From the NCBI RefSeq assembly GCF_001659685.2, contig NZ_LXYE02000038.1:124001-188000 (forward strand): DNA of 64,000 nt, given 5' to 3'. The notes beneath the pieces are model-generated. The model was not told the origin of the DNA, did no database searches, and saw only the letters and a list, made by a program, of their open reading frames with translations. The position numbers and the translations under genes are program-made. Position 1 is the stretch's first letter. The number at the start of each line of letters is the position of its first letter. Below, piece by piece: positions 3,741-55,922 of the stretch. This DNA is from Labilibacter marinus (GTDB lineage: Bacteria; Bacteroidota; Bacteroidia; Bacteroidales; Marinilabiliaceae).

Positions 3741-3919
3741 TTTATCGACGAAAAGCGTCTTTTCATCGACATCATTATTTAACGATGATCAATCCGATTA
3801 ATAAAACAATGCTAACATCTATACATCAACTACTTAATCAGAAAATCCACAATTCGTAACGCAGATAGAAAAACACTTATATCAGGTTGGTAGAAGAAAT
3901 ATTCCTATTCGTCGATAAA
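3741..3919. promoter_or_regulatory. Palindromic control region between the DUF4270 and Kelch genes
   Basis: The 346-bp gap 3669-4014 holds no gene. It contains an 11-bp inverted repeat with a 3-base centre (arms 3745-3755 and 3759-3769, one mismatch) and a perfect 12-bp inverted repeat of TTTATCGACGAA at 3741-3752 and 3908-3919, 155 bases apart. The shared core ATCGACGAA suggests binding sites for one regulator or a structured leader. No regulator gene for it can be named. Confidence 0.45.
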
Positions 3920-3966
3920 TATTTACCCGCTATCTAAGGCCTGCTTCGCAAGCCATGTTGATGACG

Positions 3967-6477: not shown

Positions 6478-7191
6478 ATGAAAGTGCAATTATTTAAATC
6501 TGAAGATAGAGGTCATGCCAACCATGGTTGGTTAGATGCCCGACATTCGTTTAGTTTTGCCAACTATTACGACCCCAAGAAAGTAAATTTTGGTGCACTA
6601 CGCGTTTTAAATGATGATACCATTGCAGCTGGAGCTGGTTTTCCAGAGCATCCACACGATAATATGGAAATAATCACTATTCCTTTGTCAGGAATGATAG
6701 CCCACAAAGACAGTATGGGTAATCAATCTGTTATTAAGGCAGGAGAAATTCAAGTGATGAGTGCAGGAAGCGGTATTTTTCATAGTGAGTTTAACAACAG
6801 TAGCGACGAAGAACTAAAGCTTTTTCAAATATGGTTATTTCCTAAAGTAAAAAATGTTGAACCCAGGTATGACCAAATTAGCATAAGTACCCTAGAAAAA
6901 AAGAATGAGTTATTCCAGATTCTAAGTCCTAATAAAGATGATGATGGTGTATGGATTCATCAGGATGCTTGGTTTAACATGGGCAATTTTGAAGCTGGCA
7001 AAAATGCTACTTATAATCTGAATAATAAAACAAGCGGTGTATACTTAATGCTGATTGAAGGAGAAATAAAAGTGGCTGACCATACACTTACAACAAGAGA
7101 TGCCATAGGTATTACGGAAGCAGAAAGCATTGATATTGAAACTAAAAGTAGTGCTAAGTTGTTACTGATGGAGATACCCATGAATTATTAA
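6478..7191 (+). CDS. Pirin family bicupin protein (YhhW-like)
   Basis: The 237-residue protein matches the pirin family. The N-terminal cupin carries the metal ligands seen in YhhW-type pirins: His58 and His60 (EHPHDNMEII), His102 and Glu104 (GIFHSEFN). A second, less conserved cupin follows. Characterised members are cytoplasmic iron proteins, some with quercetin 2,3-dioxygenase activity; the physiological substrate in most bacteria is unknown. An in-frame TTG at 6421 would place translation upstream of the predicted promoter, so the ATG was chosen. The YceI gene follows after 31 bp and is probably co-transcribed. Confidence 0.88.
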   Translation: MKVQLFKSEDRGHANHGWLDARHSFSFANYYDPKKVNFGALRVLNDDTIAAGAGFPEHPHDNMEIITIPLSGMIAHKDSMGNQSVIKAGEIQVMSAGSGIFHSEFNNSSDEELKLFQIWLFPKVKNVEPRYDQISISTLEKKNELFQILSPNKDDDGVWIHQDAWFNMGNFEAGKNATYNLNNKTSGVYLMLIEGEIKVADHTLTTRDAIGITEAESIDIETKSSAKLLLMEIPMNY

Positions 7192-27150: not shown

Positions 27151-29007
27151 TTATTCCAACACAGCCATTCTTCTTCCTGCATAACCATAAATATATGAGT
27201 TGGCTAACATGCAAATACTATAAGCATCCGTTACGTTTAATTCTTGTAAAACCTTACCTGTTTCTAAATCAATAATGGAAGGATTCTGATCATAGTAATT
27301 CTTGGTTCCTATGGCATACTTAAAATTTAGCGAGTATGAATCCAGTTGAAAAATATTAAAACTTAGCTGTTCATCTATTTGCATAGATTCTAAATCTAAA
27401 TAACGTACTTCCTTTTTCTTATTATATACAGCATTATTAAAAAACAATACAGTTTGCTCTTCTGGTAAAAAATGCCCTTCTCCCAACCCGTATACCAATG
27501 AACAAGTATTGCCTTCAATAGCGCATAAACCACTATTTAAGATGATGAACTTACCATCTGCAGACACTTCGCTGTCGCTTAAAGATAAGCCATAATTTTC
27601 CTCCATCGTTATTTGCGTCACCTCTTCTGAATGCTCATTGTATCTATACAAAGTATACCAACTTCTATAATCCGATATAATGATATAATAATTGCCTATT
27701 TCATCAGCAATTACTCTTTTAAAGTAATATCCATAACCTAAACCAGCCTTCTCTTTAAACTCTTGCAGAGAAATTATTCTTTCAGTTTCCAGTGCTTCAG
27801 GGTCTAACCTTAACACATAATCACTATTGACACCTACTATTTTTTTACCATTTTGAGACAAAGCCCATGGAGCCCCATAGAAATAAGAACGGGCATAATC
27901 ATTAATGTAAGCCTCTTTAACAACTCTGTTTGTGGATTCATCATATATTGCAAAGTTGTAATTAAAATATACTACAACTTGTCCTGTTTCCTTATTGTAA
28001 AACCTGTTTTTATTTATTACTTCAATAGGGGTCGTTTCTCCAACAGCTATATTGGTGACTTTAGAACCTTCCATGCCGTCCTCGTAATCAGCACCCGTCC
28101 CAATAAAATTAAGGTTAAATTCAAGGCTTCGACCAAAAGGAAGATCTTTAATAAAAAAGGAAGTATCATTTAAGTTCTCCGATTCAAACCAAACAGTGCT
28201 CGAATACATTCCGCCTACTACATACTTAATATCTGCTTTAGGAAATTTTGTTTTATTCCAATAAAATCGATAGCCACCATCTTCTTCTTCGTACCATAAC
28301 GGAGGTAATGGATATGTAGCGCGTCTCGTATAAGTACTTACCTCTCTTCCTCCTGCAAATACACTTAATTCGTAACCTTTATTGAGGCCCTCGTAATAAT
28401 TTTCATCATAATAATAAGTTTGGTTTTGATCTTTTATATGTGCTGTATACAGTATCTCATAATAATCAAAATCAATATACTCATAAGGCCTCCAGCTTAA
28501 CTTAAGTGCCCCATCTTCAATTGAAGTGCTTAAAGTATTAGCAATACTTGAATACATCGGAATTTTAAAAACCTTAAATTCATACACTTCAGATACGAAT
28601 TCTACTTCTGACAAATCAGCTATACTTTTAGTTCCTGAATTAAAAGCCAATTCTACCCGTATTGTATTAATCCCTTCATTCAGTTCATATAATTCCAATT
28701 CTACTCTCACAAAATCTTTATCAAGCTCCATCATACTACCTCCATTTACCGAATATCTCGCTCCCATTACCCTTCTGCCCTCTTCGGGACATGAGTAATA
28801 CATACGAAATTCATAAAAATGAACATATATTGTATCATTGATAAGCTTATTATAAAAACTAAATCCTTCTTCGGAATGAAGCGGAAGAGATGGGGATTCA
28901 ACCTGTTGTTCAAATACACCGTTAGGATCGTACTCACATGAATATAAAGTGCAAATTATTACGAAAAAGATAATGAATAAATATAATTGTTGACGAATCA
29001 TAGCCAT
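27151..29007 (-). CDS. Large lipoprotein with fibronectin-like and propeller-like regions, unknown role
   Basis: The ATG at 29007 gives a lipoprotein signal (LYLFIIFFVIICTLYSC); a TTG at 29028 would overlap the upstream gene. After a short linker, residues of about 60-300 carry beta-sandwich-like segments (LSWRPYEYIDFDYYEILYTA, typical of fibronectin type III). The C-terminal half (about 320-600) has repeated blade-like strands (SQNGKKIVGVNSDYVLRLDP, SADGKFIILNSG), suggesting a WD40-like propeller. It probably lies on the outer membrane facing in or out. It starts 13 bp after the stop of the barrel gene upstream, so the two should function together. The partner and substrate are unknown. Confidence 0.7.
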   Translation of the reverse strand: MAMIRQQLYLFIIFFVIICTLYSCEYDPNGVFEQQVESPSLPLHSEEGFSFYNKLINDTIYVHFYEFRMYYSCPEEGRRVMGARYSVNGGSMMELDKDFVRVELELYELNEGINTIRVELAFNSGTKSIADLSEVEFVSEVYEFKVFKIPMYSSIANTLSTSIEDGALKLSWRPYEYIDFDYYEILYTAHIKDQNQTYYYDENYYEGLNKGYELSVFAGGREVSTYTRRATYPLPPLWYEEEDGGYRFYWNKTKFPKADIKYVVGGMYSSTVWFESENLNDTSFFIKDLPFGRSLEFNLNFIGTGADYEDGMEGSKVTNIAVGETTPIEVINKNRFYNKETGQVVVYFNYNFAIYDESTNRVVKEAYINDYARSYFYGAPWALSQNGKKIVGVNSDYVLRLDPEALETERIISLQEFKEKAGLGYGYYFKRVIADEIGNYYIIISDYRSWYTLYRYNEHSEEVTQITMEENYGLSLSDSEVSADGKFIILNSGLCAIEGNTCSLVYGLGEGHFLPEEQTVLFFNNAVYNKKKEVRYLDLESMQIDEQLSFNIFQLDSYSLNFKYAIGTKNYYDQNPSIIDLETGKVLQELNVTDAYSICMLANSYIYGYAGRRMAVLE

Positions 29008-29749: not shown

Positions 29750-30085
29750 GTAAGGTTAAATATATTAGGCAGCGCTAATATAAGCTAATTATCATTTAGA
29801 TGATAATTAGCTTATATTTTTTCAGTTTTCATCCATATTATTTCCTTCAAAGATGGTAATTTAGTTTCTCCTTTATTTTTGAATAAACAAAATGGATTAT
29901 TCCGTTATAAAAAAATACCAAAGTTAACTCTTAGTATCTAAAAATTAAAATATATAGATTTTCCACTAGTTTACATTCTGTAAATTATTAATCTAGAGCC
30001 ATTTAGGATCATTTAAAAACTTTTGACAATAGCAATCAGAGAACAGCAATTGATAAAAGGGTAAGACTACATTTAATTACGACAC
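29750..30085. other. 336-bp gap between the barrel and DUF3817 genes
   Basis: No gene is seen. The stretch holds the 19-bp inverted repeat at 29777-29818 and is otherwise A+T-rich without convincing ORFs, repeats or terminators for the DUF3817 transcript. Confidence 0.6.
29777..29818. repeat. Perfect 19-bp inverted repeat (hairpin)
   Basis: Arms 29777-29795 and 29800-29818 are exact reverse complements around TTAG. On the plus strand a short T-run follows, as in an intrinsic terminator, yet no plus-strand gene lies upstream. On the minus strand the structure sits in the leader of the barrel gene. It could end an unseen plus-strand RNA or act as a leader hairpin or operator. Confidence 0.7.
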
Positions 30086-30954: not shown

Positions 30955-32436
30955 TTACAAATTTGGATTTACCTGCGTTTCGGTAGCTGGTATTGGCATA
31001 AAATAATCGCTTTTATCCAATCCACCGATAGGCTGAAGATCATCGGGATCTTTAGTTGAATTAGCCTCTTCTACTTTCTCGGTACGTACTAAATCAAACC
31101 AACGAACCCACTCACCAGCATGCTCACGTGCTTTTTCGGTTAAAATTAAGTCTTGGGTTAATTGAGCAGCCGTATAATCATAAACACTTGCTGTATAAAG
31201 CGGTTGGTTATAAGCTCTGCGTACAATAATATTTAAAGCTTCCAAAGCTTCGTCTACATCACCACCTGACATAAGTTCTGCCTCAGCATAAATCAAGTAT
31301 ACTTCTGCAAATCTTTCTAAAGGCAGGGACTGACCTAGGTACCAATTATTTCTTTCTCCCTCAAATTTTTGAAAGAACGGACGTGCACTCTCAAAGTCCT
31401 GCCAAGGGATAGTGGTCATCACACCATCTATGTCTTTCTCTATTGACGTTTTATAAGTAAGATCTTTACGATACTGATCTGGATAATTATTGAAAAAGGT
31501 TATCTCTGCGCATATATCATTCCAACCACCTTCGTCAGCAGGTCTGTTTGCAGAACCGTATAATGCATTACCATTCCAGTTTTGAGAAGTTCCTAAAAAG
31601 GTAATTGCAAACACCTCTTCACTATTACCATCGTGCTCAGCTTGCCATAAATCGGCCCAGTCATCTACTAAGCCCAATCCATAAATAGCTCTATCATCTA
31701 TTAAATCTTTAGCTACAGCTGCAGCCTCGGCATATTTAGCTGTTTGCTTAAGGGGATATCCAGCCATATGTAGTAAAGCCTCTGCTTTTAAAGCCATCAC
31801 ACTACCTTTACTTGCTCTACCTGGTTGAACTCTAGTATCGCTTACCATAGTAGCTAAAGCTAAATCGCAATCTGCAATAATTTGATTGTAAAGAGCCAAC
31901 TGATCAGAAGGTTCCATAGTTAAATAATCAAAATCAAATGTTTGAGAATGCAAAAGAATAGGAGCTTCTTCCCACATACGAGCTACCCAAAAATAATTAT
32001 AAGCGCGTAAAAAATAAGCCTCGCCTGCATATTGCATGATATTATCTTGATCACCTGTAGCCTCTTCATAATTATCAATAATTAAGTTGGCTCCTTGAAT
32101 GGCCTTATATGCGCCATCCCAAATAAATTGCAAACGGTAATTAATATCATTTACATTAAACTGGTCGAACTCACGAAAATCGGCTTTATTACGTGCTTTG
32201 TGTGTTGTTAAAATATCATCACCACAACAAACACCTTGTGTATTGGAGTTACCCAAACCTGTATTCCATGTATATGACATAGGTTTATACGCCCCAATAA
32301 GTGCAGAAAACATTCCTGTTTCCGTTTTGATTGCCTCACTATCATCCGACATGATAGTTGATGTATCCTCTTCTAAAAAGTCGGAACAAGCAGAGAGGAA
32401 TGTTGCTATAAATAAGAATAATATTAATTTCTTCAT
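30955..32436 (-). CDS. susD: SusD/RagB family surface glycan-binding lipoprotein
   Basis: The ATG at 32436 gives a lipoprotein signal with LSAC (Cys17) followed by SDFLEED; an ATG six codons upstream is in frame but only 6 bp after susC. The protein has the SusD marks: GAYKPMSYTW, the helical AGEAYFLRAYNYFWVARMW, ASKGSVMALKAEALLHMAGY, and the C-terminal PLERFAEVYLIYAEAEL with EKAREHAGEWVRWFDLVRTE. SusD lies on the cell surface as a lid on the SusC transporter and captures oligosaccharides. The gene follows susC directly, as expected. The ligand is inferred from the neighbouring sulfatases and GH117/GH16 enzymes to be a sulfated galactan. Confidence 0.95.
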   Translation of the reverse strand: MKKLILFLFIATFLSACSDFLEEDTSTIMSDDSEAIKTETGMFSALIGAYKPMSYTWNTGLGNSNTQGVCCGDDILTTHKARNKADFREFDQFNVNDINYRLQFIWDGAYKAIQGANLIIDNYEEATGDQDNIMQYAGEAYFLRAYNYFWVARMWEEAPILLHSQTFDFDYLTMEPSDQLALYNQIIADCDLALATMVSDTRVQPGRASKGSVMALKAEALLHMAGYPLKQTAKYAEAAAVAKDLIDDRAIYGLGLVDDWADLWQAEHDGNSEEVFAITFLGTSQNWNGNALYGSANRPADEGGWNDICAEITFFNNYPDQYRKDLTYKTSIEKDIDGVMTTIPWQDFESARPFFQKFEGERNNWYLGQSLPLERFAEVYLIYAEAELMSGGDVDEALEALNIIVRRAYNQPLYTASVYDYTAAQLTQDLILTEKAREHAGEWVRWFDLVRTEKVEEANSTKDPDDLQPIGGLDKSDYFMPIPATETQVNPNL

Positions 32437-32460
32437 TTCTTCAAATTTTACCATGACTTA

Positions 32461-35400
32461 TTAAAAGTTAATAGTTGCACTTAACGAATACATTCTTGAA
32501 TTAGGGTATGATCCCATATCCAATCCTTGAAGTGAATCGTCGTTATCCTGATTTGAGTATGCCTCTGGATCTAAACCTTTGTATTTAGTAAATGTAAGTA
32601 GGTTTGTTCCTGCCAACATTAACGAAAGATTCTTTCCTTCACCTAAAGCAATATCATACCCCACACTTAAATTCTTTAAACGTAAGAAACTAGCATCCAT
32701 TACAAAACGAGATGTTTGAATATCAGTTGCAGCAGTTGAACTAAAGTGAGGAATGTCACTATTAGGATTTGTATTTGCATCCCAACGGTCTTGAATATCA
32801 ACATGTGTTGGAAAAACTCCACCGTAACCAGGTGTTACTGCAAGTGCATAAGTTTGAGCATATCTATCAACACCTGTCATAGCTTGGAAGAACACATTTA
32901 CGGTAAATTTCTTATACTTCATGGTATTGTTCCAACCATATGTAGCATTAGGTATTCCGTTTCCGATGATTCCTTTATCCTTAGAGTCGATAACGCCATA
33001 ACCATCTTCACCTTCTTTTTGTAAATCTAAAAATCTTGGATCACCAGGAACGGCATCATACATTGCTGCTTCTGCTGCTTGATTCTGTTTCCATGTTCCT
33101 AAATAAGTTAAACCATAAAAGGATGATACGCCATAACCTTCTTTAACCATGAACGAATAACCTTCGGTAGTTTCGTTTCCGACACCAAATTCATCTTGAC
33201 CTAGAGACAATACTTCGTTGTTTAAAAAAGTAGCATTAAAGTTGGTTGTCCAAGAAAAAGCTCCATTATCAATTACATCAGCATTTATAGAGAACTCAAA
33301 GCCTTTGTTTTCAACTTCTCCAACATTTTGATACATACCTCCTCCACCAGAATACTTTGGTAGCGGTACATAAAGTAACAGGTCGTAGGTGTTTTTCTTA
33401 AAATAATCCGCCGTAAAAGTTACACGGTTAAAAAGTGCTAAATCAACACCTATATTTATTTGTTCCGTTGTTTCCCATTTTAAATCTTTATTACCAGGAT
33501 CATCCATCACTACACCAGGAACGCTCTCTCCATTTTCAAAAGAAGTAGATATTTCTTTTGGTGGACTGGTTTTAATCTGTCCTCTTGTGCCATATACTCC
33601 AACAGCCTGATTTCCGGTTTTACCCCAGGAAGCTCTTAACTTCAATTGATCGATTGCATCAACATCCATGAAGTCCTCTTCAGAAATAGTCCAACCAGCA
33701 CTTAAAGAAGGAAAGTTAGCCCATTTATTATCGCCTTGAAATACACTTGAACCATCACGGCGCATAGAAGCAGTAAAGTAGTACTTATGATCAAATACAT
33801 AATTCACACGACCTACATACGAACGTATTTTTCTTTCGCCCAAATATGCATCACCTGTTAAACCTCCACCTTCGCTAAGCAACGACAAGTTGTTGTAACC
33901 AAATGATGGGAAAAGTAGGCCTTGAGCATCCACATTAAAGTCGTCGTCAATTTCTCTGGTCTGCTCATTAACAGCAGTTACTGTAAGGTCATGACCTCCA
34001 TCAAATGACTTTCTATAGGTTAATACATTTGTATTAGCATAATAGATATCTTCACTCGCTTTACGTGTTGCTGAGGCTGCATCATCTGAGGTTAAACCCA
34101 TTAACAATGCCTGATTAAAAATTCTCTCCGAACTATTTCTATATCTAACCCCTAAACCAATATCTAATGTTAATCCTGGTATGATATCATATATTAGGTT
34201 ACCATTGGCGGTAAAAGTATTAGCCGTTTTTAAATTTTCGTCGGTTGCAAGCTCTAAAGGGCCTTCAAAGGTACTACCCACATTATCAACAGGGTTTATA
34301 CTACCATCCTCTAAGTACGCTGGCGTAGTTGGTGCCCAACTTAACATTTGGTTCATTGAAGTACGGAATCCCCAACTTCCTCCAGCATTATTTAAGGCTT
34401 CACTGTGGGTAAAATTAGTTCTAACATTAGCCTTTAACTTGTCTGAAAATTTAGTGCTGATATTAGCTCTCAAGCCATATCTTTTATAGTCTGAGTTAAT
34501 AACAATACCTTCCATATCGGTTAAATTACCAGATACATAATAGGTAGTTGTTTCGTTACCTCCCGAAAAACTCAGCTGATAATCCTGACCTTTAGCCGTC
34601 CTTAAAAGTAAATCTTGCCAATCAGAACCTCCATTTTTATAGAAGCCTTGCACATCTTGGTCTGTAAATGGAGGTGTATTACCTAAAGCCGTATAATAGT
34701 CATTAGCTACATCGGCATATTCTCCGGCTCCTAATAAATCCCACTCGTCAATTACATTAGATAAAGAATATGTAGCTCTAAACGAAATTTTGTTTTCGCC
34801 AGCTCTACCACCTTTAGTTGTTATAATAACCACACCGTTAGCACCTCTACTACCATACACAGCTGTTGCCGAAGCATCTTTTAATATCTGCATATCCTCA
34901 ATATCATTCGGATTCAGACTATTAAAGTCGCCTCCTACTAAACCATCAATTACATACAATGGATCATTATTACCTGTAATGGAATTGGATCCCCTTACGC
35001 GAATACGCGCTGTACCACCAGGTGCACCCGAAGCTTTTATTACAGAAACCCCAGCCGAACGTCCTTGAAGTACTTGACTCACCTCTGTGATAGGCTGATT
35101 TTGAAAATCCTCGTTTGTCACCGAACCAACAGCACTTGTTAAATCCTTTTTACGCGCTGTACCATATCCAATGGCTACAATCTCATCCAGGGAAACGGCA
35201 TCAGGCTTTAAGGTAATATCAATTGCAGTTTGATCTCCTACAAGCACTTCTGTAGCACGCATCCCTATAAAAGAAAAAATAAGTATATCGCTTTCTTTAA
35301 CATTCGAAAGAGAATATTTACCATCTACATCAGTTATAGTACCTGTAGTAGAACCATTTATAATAACCGTAACACCAGGTAAAGCTTCACCAGAATCATC

Positions 35401-35823
35401 AACTACTTTTCCTGTAATTGTTTTGGATATAGCTTGTACATAGCTGGCATCTATACTCTCTGGCGAAATAATTATCTGCCTATCCATAACAGAAAATTGA
35501 ACTTGCTGCCCTTCGAAAATATGATTTAGGGCATCCGAAATAGGTTCCTGTTTAATCTCAACGTCAACCTTACGTTCAACATCTACCAATTCATTATTAT
35601 ATAAAAAGAAAAATTCACTCGTATTTTCAATCTCTAATAGAACTTCTTTTATTGATGTGTCATCCATTTTTAATGATACTCTGGCTTCTTGAGAGTAGGT
35701 AGAGGATGCCATAAGTTCGAATACTGCTAGAAAAGTGATAAATGCAGATAATTTCATAACAAGCAGAAATTTAGGCGGAAGAAATCCATTGAGGAAATTC
35801 CTCCTATTTACAATCTTTTTCAT
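32461..35823 (-). CDS. susC: SusC/RagA family TonB-dependent transporter with STN signalling domain
   Basis: After a long signal region ending near SSTYSQ, residues of about 47-115 form a secretin/TonB N-terminal (STN) domain (ARVSLKMDDTSIKEVLLEIE), the part that talks to an anti-sigma factor. A carboxypeptidase-D-like domain (ITGKVVDDSGEALPGVTVII), a SusC linker (AIGYGTARKKDLTSAVGSV), the plug (LYVIDGLVGGDFNSLNPNDI, ILKDASATAVYGSRGANGVV) and a large barrel follow, ending SLSATINF. At 1120 residues it is typical. It imports oligosaccharides with SusD. The STN domain fits the FecR/ECF-sigma pair upstream. Its 5' leader overlaps a predicted antisense RNA. Confidence 0.96.
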   Translation of the reverse strand: MKKIVNRRNFLNGFLPPKFLLVMKLSAFITFLAVFELMASSTYSQEARVSLKMDDTSIKEVLLEIENTSEFFFLYNNELVDVERKVDVEIKQEPISDALNHIFEGQQVQFSVMDRQIIISPESIDASYVQAISKTITGKVVDDSGEALPGVTVIINGSTTGTITDVDGKYSLSNVKESDILIFSFIGMRATEVLVGDQTAIDITLKPDAVSLDEIVAIGYGTARKKDLTSAVGSVTNEDFQNQPITEVSQVLQGRSAGVSVIKASGAPGGTARIRVRGSNSITGNNDPLYVIDGLVGGDFNSLNPNDIEDMQILKDASATAVYGSRGANGVVIITTKGGRAGENKISFRATYSLSNVIDEWDLLGAGEYADVANDYYTALGNTPPFTDQDVQGFYKNGGSDWQDLLLRTAKGQDYQLSFSGGNETTTYYVSGNLTDMEGIVINSDYKRYGLRANISTKFSDKLKANVRTNFTHSEALNNAGGSWGFRTSMNQMLSWAPTTPAYLEDGSINPVDNVGSTFEGPLELATDENLKTANTFTANGNLIYDIIPGLTLDIGLGVRYRNSSERIFNQALLMGLTSDDAASATRKASEDIYYANTNVLTYRKSFDGGHDLTVTAVNEQTREIDDDFNVDAQGLLFPSFGYNNLSLLSEGGGLTGDAYLGERKIRSYVGRVNYVFDHKYYFTASMRRDGSSVFQGDNKWANFPSLSAGWTISEEDFMDVDAIDQLKLRASWGKTGNQAVGVYGTRGQIKTSPPKEISTSFENGESVPGVVMDDPGNKDLKWETTEQINIGVDLALFNRVTFTADYFKKNTYDLLLYVPLPKYSGGGGMYQNVGEVENKGFEFSINADVIDNGAFSWTTNFNATFLNNEVLSLGQDEFGVGNETTEGYSFMVKEGYGVSSFYGLTYLGTWKQNQAAEAAMYDAVPGDPRFLDLQKEGEDGYGVIDSKDKGIIGNGIPNATYGWNNTMKYKKFTVNVFFQAMTGVDRYAQTYALAVTPGYGGVFPTHVDIQDRWDANTNPNSDIPHFSSTAATDIQTSRFVMDASFLRLKNLSVGYDIALGEGKNLSLMLAGTNLLTFTKYKGLDPEAYSNQDNDDSLQGLDMGSYPNSRMYSLSATINF

Positions 35824-35830
35824 AAATTTG
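35823..35830 (+). promoter_or_regulatory. Plus-strand -7 box (TAAATTTG) opposite the susC start
   Basis: The octamer matches TAnnTTTG exactly, on the strand opposite susC and overlapping its start codon. A -33 element at normal spacing is weak. A plus-strand terminator lies 80 bases downstream. Confidence 0.45.
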
Positions 35831-35836
35831 TTAAGT

Positions 35837-35918
35837 ATTTAATTAGTACAAAATTTTACCTGAGCTATCATTCAGGTAGAGTAATTTAAGAAGGTGCGCC
35901 AACACCTTCTTTTTTTTT
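35837..35918 (+). ncRNA. Candidate cis-antisense small RNA opposite the susC leader
   Basis: No plus-strand gene lies here, yet a -7 box (35823-35830) and a strong intrinsic terminator bracket about 80 bases in the fecR-susC gap. The RNA would form two hairpins: ACCTGA/TCAGGT (35858-35863 with 35872-35877), and the terminator. Antisense RNAs in exactly this position repress susC homologues in Bacteroides polysaccharide loci (the DonS type). The 5' end is an estimate from the promoter box; only the terminator is directly visible. Confidence 0.5.
35888..35918 (+). terminator. Strong plus-strand intrinsic terminator in the fecR-susC gap
   Basis: AAGAAGGTG (35888-35896) pairs perfectly with CACCTTCTT (35903-35911), followed by an unbroken T-run to 35918. 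On the minus strand no U-tract follows the stem, so it is directional. Confidence 0.8.
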
Positions 35919-35969: not shown

Positions 35970-37013
35970 TTACTTCTTGACTTTTAAGGTTATTTTTCTC
36001 TTACTAAAAGAGTTGTCATCTTGTTTTCTTGCTGATGTTATTTTATAGTCCATCGAAGAAGATAGACTTAGTAGATTTAATACTTGTTCTAATGATTCAT
36101 CAATAAATGTAGCTGTAAAACGATATTTATTTAGCTCTTTATCCGCCACATCAATATCTACATTATACCATTTTTCTAATCGACGAACTACAACCCATAT
36201 TGGATCGCCATAAAATATAATTTGTCCATCTTTCCAAGCTGTGTGCTTCTCAATATATGAATCCTTTTTACAATCAAGTTTTCCACTTTTGTTATTAAAA
36301 ACAGCCACTTGTTCTGGTTCCATTACAACAAGTTCTTCATCTTTCAAACTTCCGTCCTTTATTAAACTAACCTTCCCCTCTGTTAAGGCAACCGTCATAT
36401 TTCTATAACTATTGTAGGCCGAAACATTAAACGAAGTACCATATACTTTTACATCTAACTTGGAGGTATTAACAATAAAAGGTCTTAAAGAATCTGTATG
36501 AACCTCAAAGAAGGCCTCTCCATCTAACAACACTTCACGTTTCTTTCCTTGCTTAAAAGCGGTTGGGAATTTTAATGTACTTCCAGAATTTAACCAAACC
36601 TGTGTACCATCTGATAATAATAGTTTACTACGAGTTCCGTATGAAGCGGTAATTTCTTGATATATGGTTTTCTCGTTAATCGCAATCTTAGAATCGATAG
36701 GACGATTTTGATATAGATAACTGATCAATAATGAAAGTAATAAAACAGCTGCTGCCTGACGGGCATATACCAGCCACCTTTTCGGAGTTTTAAAGCCTAT
36801 TTGTTTTTTAGTCTTTTTAAGCGAGACTTCTACGTCAATTTCATCCGACAGTACTAGTTTTTTAGACTTGTTCCATATTTTACGGTAAGCCTGATAATCC
36901 TTTATATTCTTATCAGATTCTGCAAGCCACTTATCTAAAACCTCTTGTTCATTAGCTTCAAGCCCTTCCAAAATTTGCTTAGTAATGATATTTTCGATGT
37001 ATGTATTGTCCAC
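35970..37013 (-). CDS. FecR family anti-sigma factor
   Basis: The N-terminal cytoplasmic anti-sigma region covers residues 1-80 (VLDKWLAESDKNIKDYQAYR), followed by one transmembrane helix at about 84-101, then the periplasmic FecR domain with TIYQEITASYGTRSKLLLSD, GTQVWLNSGSTLKFPTAF, REVLLDGEAFFEVHTD and a DUF4974-like C-terminus (FYGDPIWVVVRRLEKWYNVD). It should hold the sigma factor until SusC's STN domain signals substrate binding. It lies 192 bp downstream of the sigma gene and 146 bp upstream of susC, the standard order. The gap after it holds the antisense RNA candidate. Confidence 0.95.
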   Translation of the reverse strand: MDNTYIENIITKQILEGLEANEQEVLDKWLAESDKNIKDYQAYRKIWNKSKKLVLSDEIDVEVSLKKTKKQIGFKTPKRWLVYARQAAAVLLLSLLISYLYQNRPIDSKIAINEKTIYQEITASYGTRSKLLLSDGTQVWLNSGSTLKFPTAFKQGKKREVLLDGEAFFEVHTDSLRPFIVNTSKLDVKVYGTSFNVSAYNSYRNMTVALTEGKVSLIKDGSLKDEELVVMEPEQVAVFNNKSGKLDCKKDSYIEKHTAWKDGQIIFYGDPIWVVVRRLEKWYNVDIDVADKELNKYRFTATFIDESLEQVLNLLSLSSSMDYKITSARKQDDNSFSKRKITLKVKK

Positions 37014-37205: not shown

Positions 37206-37787
37206 TTATAAAATTTCACCCATGTTAAAAATGGTAGCTATAATTGGTAAATAGTCTTTTAGCTCAGCTCTTAAAATTTTTAAAGAGCGGCCTAATAGCG
37301 CTTCTACGGCTTTTACAGAGATATCCATTTTAGCCGCAATTTCCTTATAACTTAAACCATCAAAGCGACTATATTCAAAGGCTTGTCGACTTCTTTCAGG
37401 TAACATAGCTAAGGCCACAACCAGTTTTTCTTCAAATTCGCCTAGCTCTAAAAGCTGCTCCGAATTATTTTCTGGTTCATTTAACGCGATATTGGTTTTA
37501 ACACGATCAAAAGTTTTAACAGATCGTAAATAGTCGATACAATTATTCCGAACCATAAAAGACAGATAGGAAGACAGATTATTTATACTCTCTGCTTTTT
37601 GTCGGTTCTCCCAAAGTTTTACAAAACACTCCTGCACTAAACTCTGAGATTTATCTAAATCGTGTACATATAAGTTAGCTTGAGCGCAAAGTGACTTGAA
37701 GTATTTACGAAAAACAAAATCAAACGCACCTTCTTTGCCTTGGCGGAATTCAGCCAGTAAATATTGATCTTGATCTTGTTTTTCCAT
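37206..37787 (-). CDS. ECF RNA polymerase sigma factor (sigma-70 family, Bacteroidetes FecI-type)
   Basis: At 193 residues it has region 2 (GAFDFVFRKYFKSLCAQANL, SQSLVQECFVKLWENR) and region 4 with an HTH (LPERSRQAFEYSRFDGLSYK, EIAAKMDISVKAVEALLG), the layout of Bacteroidetes-type ECF sigma factors paired with FecR. It should direct transcription of susCD when the anti-sigma factor releases it. A good housekeeping promoter lies just upstream, so basal expression does not depend on the sulfatase gene before it. Confidence 0.94.
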   Translation of the reverse strand: MEKQDQDQYLLAEFRQGKEGAFDFVFRKYFKSLCAQANLYVHDLDKSQSLVQECFVKLWENRQKAESINNLSSYLSFMVRNNCIDYLRSVKTFDRVKTNIALNEPENNSEQLLELGEFEEKLVVALAMLPERSRQAFEYSRFDGLSYKEIAAKMDISVKAVEALLGRSLKILRAELKDYLPIIATIFNMGEIL

Positions 37788-51437: not shown

Positions 51438-54400
51438 ATGAGAATAACTTTTACTCTATTTATTTTATACTTTATAAATATCAGTGCTTTTTCTCAAAGC
51501 CCATCTCAAGTATTTACAGACAACACAGAAGAGTTCATCCCAAAAATGGAAGAACTCTTTAAATCTATTGCAGATAAAAAACATGCTAAAAGCTACATTG
51601 AAGAATTAAGCACATTTTGGTATTCTGCTGACAATACAGAGGAAGATAAGCTATTGATTATCACAAATTGTAATCATCTGGCCAAAAAGAAAGCCCGTCC
51701 AATTCCAGACTACGAAACCTACCTTAACTGTGCAAGGACTTATTTAACTGCTGATATTGCTAAACCATCGTTTGAAGCATGGAATAACTCAGTAGTTGAT
51801 TTAGCAACTAAACCTAGGTATCAACTCCGAAAATTAAACTCCTATTTAAAAATAACCACTAATTTAATTACGGATAAAATAATATACTCTACCCCTTCCA
51901 ACAAATGGAAATCAGACAATAGTAACTGGACCTTAAAATACATCAACAAGGAATTGATAGCAACGTTTCCTTCTTTAAAACTAACTTGCTATTCTAAAAA
52001 CGATAGTATTCAAATTTTTGATTCGAAAGGAACCTTTAATTACGCCACCAACATTTGGGAGGGTGATAAAGGTAAAATCACTTGGGAAAGGTCTGGCTTT
52101 GATCCTGCTCAAGTAAACGCAACATTTGGAGCTTATAGGTTACCGCTTAAACAATCATATATCGAAATTGACTCTGTTCAGTTTTATAACACTATCTATT
52201 TTGATCATCCATTAAAAGGTAAGTTAAGGCACAAAGTAATGAATATTAAATCGCCCGAAAGTTCTACTTATCCACAATTTTTATCTGTAGAACAACGCTT
52301 TAAATTAGACAATATTCATCCTGATATAAATTACGAAGGAGGCTTTTCTCAAAATGGAGCTAAGTTCTTAGGATCTGGAACGCACGAAAACCCAGCTACT
52401 ATAACCATCTTTCGTAACGACACCGCCTTTTTAACAGCGAAATCACTTTATTTTGCTTTACGTAAAGATCAGATACTTAGTAGTGATACTGAAGTGAAAT
52501 TTAGAATGGATCAGGACTATATTTACCACCCAGGTCTTATTTTTAAATTAATGGTAGATGAAAACGAACTTCATCTAATTAGAAATGGCGAAGGATTAGC
52601 TTTAAGTCCTTATTTTAACACCTACCATAATGTTAGTATGGACATCGAGCTATTAACCTGGAAACTAAACAGTTTGTTGATGGACTTAAAAATGGTTTCT
52701 GGTGCTGCTGAAAACCATGGTGAGTTTGAATCATTAAGTTATTTCAGAGAAAGCTTTTATAACCAACTGCAAGGAATGGATGCCATCCACCCACTTCAAG
52801 GTTTAAGAAACTGCTCTAAATATTTTCACGGGAGACCATTCAGTGCTAAAGAATATGCAGGTATGATGGGCTTGCCAGAAAATCAGATACGTCAACAAGT
52901 CATACAACTGTCTTTTTATGGGTTTGTGAATTACAATGTAAACACAGATATGATTCAAATAACGGACAGGCTTAATGACTACTTGTCCTTTAGATTAGGT
53001 AAAAAGGATTATGATGTTATTAGATTCGTATCTCATACTCCTGGTGGATTAGCCAATGCACAAATTGACTTATTAAACTACGATATTGATATAAACGGTG
53101 TACAACAGATATCTATTTCTGATAATCAAAATGTAGTTTTCTTCCCTCGCAATGAGCATCTATTATTAAAGAAAAATAGAAACTTTGTTTTTGATGGCGC
53201 CATTAATGCTGGTATGCTTAATTTATATGGCGATGGTTTTAAATTTAACTACGAAAACTTTCTGATCGATATGAAAAATATCGATTCGGTTAGAATGAAG
53301 GTGCAAACCGGTGAGCTAGATTATTTTGGCCAACCTAAACTCACTTATGTAAATAATGCCATTGAAAATTTATCTGGTAGCTTAAAAATTGATCAGCCAG
53401 ATAACAAATCTGGTAAAGATTTTTATAGTGAATACCCTATCTTACATAGTTCTAAGGAGTCATTTGTGTATTACGACAAACCCGAAGTACAGGGAGGACA
53501 GTACGCCCGCGAAAAATTCTATTTTAAACTAGATACGTTTAGTATGGATAGCATTAGTAAATTAACGGCTAAAAACTTCGACTTTTCGGGAACATTCGTA
53601 TCTAATATCTTTCCAACGTTTGAAGAGAACTTAACGGTAAGAAAAGACTACTCTCTTGGTTTTAAAAGGAAAACACCAGAAACTGGATATGATATTTATG
53701 ATCACAGAGCAAAATTCACCAACGATATTGATTTAAGCAATAAAGGTCTTAGAGGTTCTGGTACATTAAACTACCTTTCTTCAACTTCTAAATCCGAAAA
53801 CTTATTATTTTTACCTGAAGAGACTAGAGGGCAGGCTCATGAGTTCACTGTTCAAAAAAGCGAAGAAGGAACAGAATATCCAGATGCACAAGGCAAATAT
53901 AATCATATCTCCTACCTACCATATAGTGATAAGTTGATTTCAAATTCTCAGGAAGAATCTTTCACGATGTATAACAGTGAGGCTCAGCTAGAAGGTCAGA
54001 TTGTAATAGGCCCATACGGGGCAACTGGAAAAGGAACTTTTTATATGGAAAAAGCCAATATAAAATCACCTGACATGACTTTTGGTGGCCATATCTTGTT
54101 AGCTGATTCATCTGACTTTAATTTGGTAAGTGCAGATATGGAAGATGCTGTATCCTTCAATACAACCAACCTGGTTTCTCAAATTGACTTTGAAGAGCGC
54201 CAAGGTAAGTTCCGCTCTAAAACTGGAGGTAGTGAGGTTAACTTTACCGATAATAGATATGTTTCGTACATTAGTGAATTCTCATGGGATATGGATAAAA
54301 ATGACATCTTTATGGGAGCTCGTGGTTCGGAAGGTAACCGATTTGTTTCAACACATAAAAGACAAGATTCTCTAGAGTTTAGAGTACCACTAGCCCGTTA

Positions 54401-55922
54401 CGATGTAGAAAACAAAGTTATCTATGCAGAAGAAGTAAAGGAGATTAAAGTAGCTGATGCGAATATTATACTTAGCAATGGAAATGTAATCATTCGCGAA
54501 GATGCAGATATGGCACCACTGGACAGTGCTGTTATAGTTTTAACAGCTGATACAAGTTTATCTCACACTATCTATAATTCCCATTTAAAAATAGCAGGTA
54601 AATTTGATTATTCGGGTTATGGAGAGTATGATTATATCAATGGTAACGGTAAAAAATTCACCATCCAGTTTAATGATATTGGTTTAAATGATGACGTTAA
54701 AACCACGGCAGAAGGAACAATAATTGGTGAAGATTTATTTACGTTTGATAAAAACTTTACATTTAAGGGGAAAGCAAAACTTACCTCTACCGAAAAACAT
54801 TTAAACTTTGATGGAGGTGCACAAATGCTTCACCAATGTTCAGGTGGACCTCAGACTTTTACTTATTTTAATGCAACGATCGATCCTCATAAAGTTAGGA
54901 TTCCTATTGGAGTAGAACCAGTTAATTACGAACGAAAAAAGATATATAGAGACTTTTATATCACAAAAGATTCATCCCACCTGTATTCGACCTTCTTGAC
55001 TAGCAGAAAGGATTACAGCGATATACCAATGATTACTGCTGGAGAATATCTATACTTCAACGATAAACAGAATGCCTTTGAAATAACTGATCTTCATAGA
55101 ATTGAAAACCCAGATACAACAGGGGTGCTATTTAGGTATTCTAATACAAACTGTACTGTTCTTGCTGAAGGTAAAATGGATATGGGAATGGATCTTGGTC
55201 AGGTTAAACTTCTAAACTCAGGCACAATTATCGATGATCCTAAAAAAGAAAAAATAACCCTTACTTCAATGTTAGGAATTGATTTCTTTTTTAATGAAGT
55301 AGCTACTGAGCAAATGACCAGTGCTATTTTAGCATCTTCTGCTAGAGAAAGTAATGTATCCAATGAATTATTCCAAAAACGCGCGGCAGAACTAGTCGGC
55401 CTTAAAGAATCTAAAAAGCTTACTAAAGAGTGTCAATCAATACAATTAATTGAGGAACTAAATGAAACCATGAATAATATGTTTTTATTTAGTAATATCG
55501 ATTTTATTTTTGATGGAAAGTACCATATGTATATTGCTGATGGTACGGCTGACCTATCTATGGTTAATAATCAAGTACTCAACAAAAAAGTAGATATCAA
55601 AGCTGAAATTGTTAAGAAACGAAGTGGTAACTCTATCGACTTATTTTTAAGTTTTGATAAATCAACTTGGTTCTACTTTAGCTATAAATCAAAAATGATG
55701 TATACTTTATCTTCAATAGAAGCGTACAATTCAACGGTATTAAATTTAAAATCGGATGAACGAAAAGCTAAGTCAGGAGGTTTTACTTTTATACAAGCAC
55801 CAGCGAGCCGTTTAAATCGTTTTATTAAGAAATTTGGCTTAGCTCCTATTAAAACAAGCTCTGGCGCTAGTGGACAACAAATTAATACTGAAAAAACTAA
55901 AGATGATAATCCAACAAACTAG
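51438..55922 (+). CDS. Very large exported protein of unknown function, with a winged-helix-like segment
   Basis: The 1494-residue protein has a signal peptide (ending ISAFSQ) and no later transmembrane helices. An N-terminal helical part (about 25-130) is followed by long stretches of beta strands with FSGTF, GSGTLNYL and GKGTFYMEKANI-like repeats, suggesting a solenoid or OstA/LptA-like fold. Residues of about 465-515 (FSAKEYAGMMGLPENQIRQQ, VIQLSFYGFVNYN) read like a winged helix, unusual in an exported protein. No catalytic motif is recognised. It lies 10 bp after prmA and 109 bp before a DUF4097-like gene. A structural or outer-membrane biogenesis role is only a guess. Confidence 0.7.
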   Translation: MRITFTLFILYFINISAFSQSPSQVFTDNTEEFIPKMEELFKSIADKKHAKSYIEELSTFWYSADNTEEDKLLIITNCNHLAKKKARPIPDYETYLNCARTYLTADIAKPSFEAWNNSVVDLATKPRYQLRKLNSYLKITTNLITDKIIYSTPSNKWKSDNSNWTLKYINKELIATFPSLKLTCYSKNDSIQIFDSKGTFNYATNIWEGDKGKITWERSGFDPAQVNATFGAYRLPLKQSYIEIDSVQFYNTIYFDHPLKGKLRHKVMNIKSPESSTYPQFLSVEQRFKLDNIHPDINYEGGFSQNGAKFLGSGTHENPATITIFRNDTAFLTAKSLYFALRKDQILSSDTEVKFRMDQDYIYHPGLIFKLMVDENELHLIRNGEGLALSPYFNTYHNVSMDIELLTWKLNSLLMDLKMVSGAAENHGEFESLSYFRESFYNQLQGMDAIHPLQGLRNCSKYFHGRPFSAKEYAGMMGLPENQIRQQVIQLSFYGFVNYNVNTDMIQITDRLNDYLSFRLGKKDYDVIRFVSHTPGGLANAQIDLLNYDIDINGVQQISISDNQNVVFFPRNEHLLLKKNRNFVFDGAINAGMLNLYGDGFKFNYENFLIDMKNIDSVRMKVQTGELDYFGQPKLTYVNNAIENLSGSLKIDQPDNKSGKDFYSEYPILHSSKESFVYYDKPEVQGGQYAREKFYFKLDTFSMDSISKLTAKNFDFSGTFVSNIFPTFEENLTVRKDYSLGFKRKTPETGYDIYDHRAKFTNDIDLSNKGLRGSGTLNYLSSTSKSENLLFLPEETRGQAHEFTVQKSEEGTEYPDAQGKYNHISYLPYSDKLISNSQEESFTMYNSEAQLEGQIVIGPYGATGKGTFYMEKANIKSPDMTFGGHILLADSSDFNLVSADMEDAVSFNTTNLVSQIDFEERQGKFRSKTGGSEVNFTDNRYVSYISEFSWDMDKNDIFMGARGSEGNRFVSTHKRQDSLEFRVPLARYDVENKVIYAEEVKEIKVADANIILSNGNVIIREDADMAPLDSAVIVLTADTSLSHTIYNSHLKIAGKFDYSGYGEYDYINGNGKKFTIQFNDIGLNDDVKTTAEGTIIGEDLFTFDKNFTFKGKAKLTSTEKHLNFDGGAQMLHQCSGGPQTFTYFNATIDPHKVRIPIGVEPVNYERKKIYRDFYITKDSSHLYSTFLTSRKDYSDIPMITAGEYLYFNDKQNAFEITDLHRIENPDTTGVLFRYSNTNCTVLAEGKMDMGMDLGQVKLLNSGTIIDDPKKEKITLTSMLGIDFFFNEVATEQMTSAILASSARESNVSNELFQKRAAELVGLKESKKLTKECQSIQLIEELNETMNNMFLFSNIDFIFDGKYHMYIADGTADLSMVNNQVLNKKVDIKAEIVKKRSGNSIDLFLSFDKSTWFYFSYKSKMMYTLSSIEAYNSTVLNLKSDERKAKSGGFTFIQAPASRLNRFIKKFGLAPIKTSSGASGQQINTEKTKDDNPTN

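Follow-up and report, generated by a model that had tools for sequence, protein, structure and literature searches.

A probable DonS-type cis-antisense RNA gene opposite the start of a susC homologue in Labilibacter marinus

The window analysed here, by which we mean the whole stretch of 64,000 nucleotides (contig NZ_LXYE02000038.1, positions 124,001 to 188,000) taken from the 6.03-Mb genome of Labilibacter marinus, carries on its minus strand genes whose Pfam domains identify an ECF sigma factor (37206-37787; Sigma70_r2, Sigma70_r4_2, Sigma70_ECF), a FecR anti-sigma factor (35970-37013; FecR, FecR_C), a SusC homologue (32461-35823; STN, CarbopepD_reg_2, Plug, TonB barrel) and, 3' of susC, a SusD homologue (30955-32454; SusD_RagB, SusD-like_3). 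The gap between fecR and susC measures 146 bases. Two sulfatases and one GH43-family protein (Pfam) are also encoded near the gap, which would be compatible with a sulfated glycan as substrate, without naming that glycan. After removal of overlapping frames, the list of open reading frames holds none of at least 100 aa on the plus strand between 25772 and 44373, in line with an earlier sequence-only reading of this DNA, according to which no plus-strand gene lies nearby. Elsewhere in the window, two large predicted proteins, one of 1494 aa (51438-55922, plus strand) and one of 618 aa (27151-29007, minus strand), gave no Pfam match at E<=0.001, and an A/T-rich stem of 19 pairs, followed by T on the plus strand, lies between two minus-strand genes at 29777-29818.

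On the plus strand, opposite the start of susC, lie the elements of a putative short antisense RNA gene, namely a promoter box, a two-hairpin body and a terminator, which together with their position and conservation are established here by the sequence and by its comparison with relatives. The predicted -7 promoter box, TAAATTTG at 35823-35830, matches TAnnTTTG, and its first base faces the A that opens the susC start codon, so that the overlap amounts to one base. Since TAnnTTTG is located at -12 to -5 in Flavobacterium psychrophilum (PMC9723704), the RNA is predicted to start at 35835 and, with its end set by the T-run, to be about 84 nt long (35835-35918, plus strand); its 5' end would thus fall 12 bases before the susC start codon, leaving the codon itself uncovered. 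By eye, no -33 TTTG element was apparent upstream of the box in the window copy, and such an element was likewise not found in Flavobacterium johnsoniae, according to the accessible text of PMC7366714. At the predicted 5' end (35835-35849), as in the same place of related RNAs, the sequence often resembles an inverted repeat, GTTTTA-N4-TTAAAC or similar, and this stretch could represent the RNA 5' end, a site for a regulator or a portion of a sense promoter.

Hairpin 1 of the predicted RNA spans 35853-35882, on which MFE and centroid structures agree, while hairpin 2, with the loop region TGCGCCAACA, forms together with the T-run a putative intrinsic terminator (35888-35918, plus strand) that is indicated by the sequence, by terminator scans and by stem covariation in relatives. 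The arms of its stem, AAGAAGGTG and CACCTTCTT, form nine perfect pairs around a 6-base loop (35888-35911), and the T-run follows directly 3' at 35912-35918. The segment 35836-35918 adopts the two-hairpin fold with an energy of -24.8 kcal/mol (z -5.70), which 0 of 200 shuffles equalled, and the body of the RNA remains structured when the terminator is removed (z -4.78). In dinucleotide shuffles of the 146-base gap (n=5000), a plus-strand terminator of -7 kcal/mol or lower arose in 0.22% and one of -11.1 or lower, the strength of the window's own terminator, in none. As the surrounding 19-kb region holds an ordinary number of terminator-like sites (9 found versus 10.1 expected), what is unusual about the terminator is its strength, strand and position, not the local density of sites. 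The minus-strand stretch 35970-35758, hairpins included, has a z of -2.86, and folding of the sense RNA yields the hairpin as well. The sequence-only reading had described a perfect 9-bp stem with a T-run on the plus strand only, a TAnnTTTG box at 35823-35830 and an RNA of about 80 bases with two hairpins; all of these hold up, our own detector finding the terminator on the plus strand only, with the addition that a looser scan picked up a weaker site on the minus strand as well (35878-35857).

Direct alignment of the gap with orthologues proved impossible, as the best match of the window's FecR in 60 other genomes is 40% identical, with none above 42% among the matches listed; the closest SusC, that is, the best-scoring one among the fetched proteins, is 36% identical. 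For want of a close orthologue in these 60 genomes, the architecture was tested on populations of fecR-susC gaps. Eighty stretches around FecR matches from the same genus, family and order, together with the window, yielded 73 adjacent fecR-susC pairs, a non-random sample because the loci were drawn from matches to the window's FecR; nine of these 81 sources lacked an adjacent same-strand pair and were left out of the counts. Under a fixed rule, which required a dG of -7 or lower and 6 or more T among 8 bases, a terminator antisense to both genes was present in 46 of the 73 gaps, and an antisense terminator in 10 of the 242 remaining co-directional gaps of these stretches (Fisher p 1.9e-26), whereas a sense terminator was present in 1/73 and 31/242, respectively. 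The motif CAAANNTATG, which is the complement of TAnnTTTG and shares one base with the start codon, coincided exactly with the predicted start in 44 of 73 fecR-linked susC genes versus 2 of 327 other genes (p 1.7e-36), and within the same stretches with that of 0/82 fecR, 0/76 ECF and 2/7 other susC genes; when 60 bases on either side of the susC start are admitted, the box occurs in 48/73. Conservation of the stem and T-run in relatives, set beforehand by the sequence-only reading as a test of its proposal, is therefore seen in the terminator counts and accompanied by that of the box.

Box and terminator occur together in 36 of the 73 gaps, and the distance between them gives predicted RNAs of 58-110 nt. 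In 25 of these 36 the body without the terminator is more structured than shuffles (p<=0.05), compared with 8 of 60 control segments. The signature is not universal, since 15/73 gaps have neither feature. Five further genomes of the order showed an antisense terminator in 16/33 gaps (controls 1/49) and both features in 9/33, and in other orders of the class the corresponding counts were 10/38 (controls 2/77) and 1/38. In the window's own genome, 4 of the best 30 of 34 susC genes at the family cut-off carry CAAANNTATG and 26 lack it, and three of the four carriers, the window's gene among them, also have the antisense terminator. Two of the five fecR-susC pairs examined there bear the signature and three do not, and it is also found at one susC on contig 14 that has no adjacent fecR.

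In an alignment of 32 such RNAs, 94.1% of the cells in the terminator stem are paired and 92 cells are changed on both sides, such changes being seen at all ten stem pairs; the covariation of 0.798, versus 0.282 in shuffles, is in part a product of the selection of aligned sequences that have a terminator, a fault that does not affect the counts of 46/73 and 44/73. One of the 32 rows of this alignment (A3, the basis of model R2), a Saprospiraceae sequence (L332), proved not to be at susC and was kept in the covariation counts. The loop TGTTNNNGCA or its reverse complement, a motif chosen after the sequences had been looked at, is present in 25 of 72 antisense terminators versus 0 of 74 ordinary terminators of the same stretches, and, with 17 of the 72 showing one orientation and 8 the other, this loop is no directional DNA element. 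A loop string of at least 5 bases is common to hairpins 1 and 2 in 7 of 51 RNAs (2000 re-pairings: mean 2.3, maximum 8; reverse-complement control 4/51), and the mean length of the shared strings lies above that of the re-pairings (p 0.001). Such twin loops, common to both hairpins of one RNA yet different between RNAs, are clear in a few RNAs (L050, L060, L048), though not in the window; both hairpins carry identical or almost identical loops in L050, L060, L048, L038 and L186 and, by eye, in L184, L294 and L314.

Model R1, built from 30 sequences and run on 61 genomes at E<=0.01, gave 49 matches in 21 genomes. All 30 matches that were fetched as loci, of which 11 are non-training sequences by comparison of their places with the training list, are antisense at a susC start, a few of them, such as L284 and L274, at an ATG inside the predicted frame. 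The upstream gene was labelled fecR in 26 of the 30; in two (L283, L285) it is a FecR-sized frame that was automatically labelled susC, and two (L284, L286) have none. Of the latter, L286 (own genome, contig 14, 64223-64315) is a susC with the RNA signature and only minus-strand frames upstream, and L284 (G011 contig 2, 160233-160309) is likewise a susC with the signature, with another open frame upstream. The window RNA matches R1 (E 6.9e-5) and R2 (E 0.00145), but is a training sequence of both. Run on eight genomes from the pattern search described below, R2 gave 26 matches, at least 6 of them training sequences; 25 of the 26 lie no more than 60 bases from a susC start, and the remaining one (L421) does not.

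Public genomes were searched with a DNA pattern made of the promoter, the complement of the start codon and the loop. The pattern occurs at no fewer than 120 loci and, among the 120 matches listed, 115 lie at a susC start, a proportion to be read with the bias of the pattern in mind, which is towards gene starts of that kind, not susC in particular, because it includes the complement of ATGAAAAA. Directly upstream of these 115 susC genes, fecR is found in 108, and in five no gene lies upstream inside the available stretch; the first 80 loci listed comprise 78 at a susC start, 71 with fecR upstream. The 120 loci listed hold 113 distinct RNA stretches, and the matches fall in Bacteroidales, Marinilabiliales, flavobacteria, Pedobacter and Belliella. 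Names were available for 80 of the 120; those at a susC start include gut-type relatives with the same architecture, namely an uncultured Bacteroides sp. (L307), Caecibacteroides (L312), Parabacteroides (L353) and Butyricimonas (L294), together with many Marinilabiliales (for example Carboxylicivirga and Prolixibacter), many flavobacteria (for example Arenibacter, Flavivirga and Salegentibacter), two Pedobacter and Belliella. Five of the 120 (L332, L342, L382, L388, L400) are not at a recognised susC; in L332, L382 and L400 the antisense promoter and loop pattern stands at the start of genes unrecognised as susC, and L332 is not susC-like by eye.

Taken as a whole, the sequence evidence makes it very probable that a gene for a DonS-type PUL-associated cis-antisense RNA lies in the window, and we consider it likely that this is a real gene whose product acts on susC, by whichever route. 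The route is where the most serious alternative lies, in which the gene is accepted and the RNA is made, as a mere by-product of a transcription device: polymerase at the opposing promoter would collide with or block susC transcription. The locking of the -7 box to the susC start codon suits a role of promoter position itself, and the mechanism of DonS is described as unknown in the accessible text of PMC11697453, yet collision alone would need neither the structured body seen in 25 of 36 RNAs nor the loop shared by 25/72 antisense and 0/74 ordinary terminators (a motif defined after viewing the sequences), and we regard this route as rather unlikely. We think it improbable that the hairpin is only an insulator, keeping stray antisense transcription that comes from susC out of fecR and ecf, with the TAnnTTTG match reflecting translation-start context. 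Such an element would explain why the terminators sit before fecR, and a box that overlaps the start codon could be a translation-signal site; however, CAAANNTATG is nearly missing at other gene starts (2/327) and missing at 26 of the best 30 susC genes of the same genome, where three of four carriers also have the terminator, and the distance from box to terminator gives RNAs of 58-110 nt in all 36 with both features.

The hairpin might, finally, belong to the sense strand, as a structured susC leader or as an ECF-sigma promoter with a palindromic core, given that it forms in the sense RNA as well and that, of the gapped motifs, GGA-N16-TCC shows the highest enrichment in the gaps. Against this stand the T-run on the antisense side (46/73 versus 1/73), a stem that changes by paired substitutions, which an asymmetric sigma site does not predict, and a loop found in either orientation (17 and 8 of 72), and we hold a sense-strand role to be very improbable. 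A search for the sense promoter itself, by gapped motifs in 196 non-redundant upstream regions, recognised no ECF promoter for susC, the top 40 motifs reading as the hairpin plus an A-run. As such, the susC "leader" is an assumption, and pairing, interference and ribosome hindrance are not separable, since neither a susC transcript start nor an ECF promoter was recognised in the gaps.

For the antisense RNA gene, which is the reading we prefer, we propose from the anatomy of the locus an off-state device. The housekeeping sigma factor would start the RNA from the -7 box, which has one base in common with the susC start codon, and the RNA would run for about 84 nt away from susC and across its leader until the intrinsic terminator stops it before fecR. 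It would most likely lower uninduced susC by pairing with the leader of susC-bound transcripts, which it covers up to 12 bases from the start codon, near or inside the ribosome footprint. After release of the ECF sigma factor, strong transcription of susC through the antisense promoter would turn that promoter off and thereby create a threshold, such that susC would be on only when ECF-driven transcription overwhelms the antisense RNA and overruns its promoter. Transcription of the window copy, repression of susC, pairing as the means and occlusion of the promoter on induction are steps that we infer. Repression in particular is not to be assumed, since in B. thetaiotaomicron some PUL antisense RNAs are anti-correlated and others positively correlated with their PUL (PMC10994844).

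More tentatively, we speculate that a single ancient RNA family may exist in several orders of Bacteroidota, built into susC genes in that its promoter shares a base of the start codon, with the hairpin loops as recognition element, and that it may serve PULs in general as an off-state device, including at susC genes that have no sigma/anti-sigma partners; in this ancient-family proposal, the loops might be recognised by a common RNA-binding protein or by loop-loop pairing with the sense leader. Genes for PUL-associated antisense RNAs can now be recognised in Bacteroidota genomes from sequence, without the need for RNA data, and a poorly understood mechanism of gut bacteria thereby becomes recognisable and testable. 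The promoter box, which can be altered inside the susC leader, and the terminator loop, which is common to several orders, offer handles for this, and susC genes with and without the signature provide a natural contrast within one genome.

No match at the gathering score was found in Rfam for any part of the 64-kb window. The best weak match to the region, BTnc231 (RF04180; plus strand, 35811-35912, 20.4 bits, E 0.049), falls far below the gathering score of 80.4, so that the window RNA is not a member. Among 16 related loci, three gathering matches were obtained, a tRNA in L185 and two Acido-Lenti-1 elements in L184, and none for the antisense RNA. The L184 locus, from a genome of the same order, holds a strong Acido-Lenti-1 (RF01687) pair in opposite orientation, 114 bases apart (6624-6669, minus strand; 6784-6829, plus strand), and its antisense RNA (3817-3925) is clear of both. 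The titles, abstract openings and passages covered by our literature search gave no account of this copy, nor of the promoter placement or the loop outside Bacteroides, though the 2016 DonS paper (Cao et al.) may already report the promoter placement.

PUL-associated antisense RNAs were reported from RNA-seq of gut Bacteroides, and PMC10994844 calls for functional work on the class. That DonS-type RNAs occupy this position in Bacteroides, as the sequence-only reading had stated, is documented: the annotation of B. thetaiotaomicron at first listed ten DonS-like RNAs, of which Northern blots confirmed five, and later 32 (PMC7366714, PMC10994844). According to the accessible text of these two papers, repression has been demonstrated for one DonS-type RNA, in B. 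fragilis, where DonS represses its PUL by a mechanism called unknown (PMC11697453). The FopS and GibS RNAs of B. thetaiotaomicron resemble the window RNA as small RNAs that act on glycan-use mRNAs, FopS-10 repressing susC BT_3983 at translation start, but differ in reaching several targets on separate mRNAs via a seed near the start codon, and encoding opposite susC is not described for them in the accessible text of PMC11697453. The closer parallel is with DonS and the other PUL-associated cis-antisense RNAs of Bacteroides, like which the predicted RNA lies opposite the 5' end of a susC homologue and is divergent to the PUL operon. Its predicted length of about 84 nt falls within the 78-128 nt of the known family (PMC7366714), some relatives being predicted down to 58 nt, and its predicted promoter has the -7 box TAnnTTTG of the housekeeping (sigma-ABfr) type, positionally conserved, with the -33 element not apparent by eye; a promoter of this type is typical of the B. 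thetaiotaomicron cis-antisense candidates, where it occurs in 52%, and not strictly defining (PMC7366714). Unlike DonS of Bacteroides, the window RNA would belong to a member of the Marinilabiliaceae and to a PUL with sulfatases, and the likeness to DonS drawn here is one of description. The kind of RNA is thus already known, and what the present study adds is a definition in sequence that is valid in several orders, namely a promoter locked to the susC start codon and a shared terminator loop.
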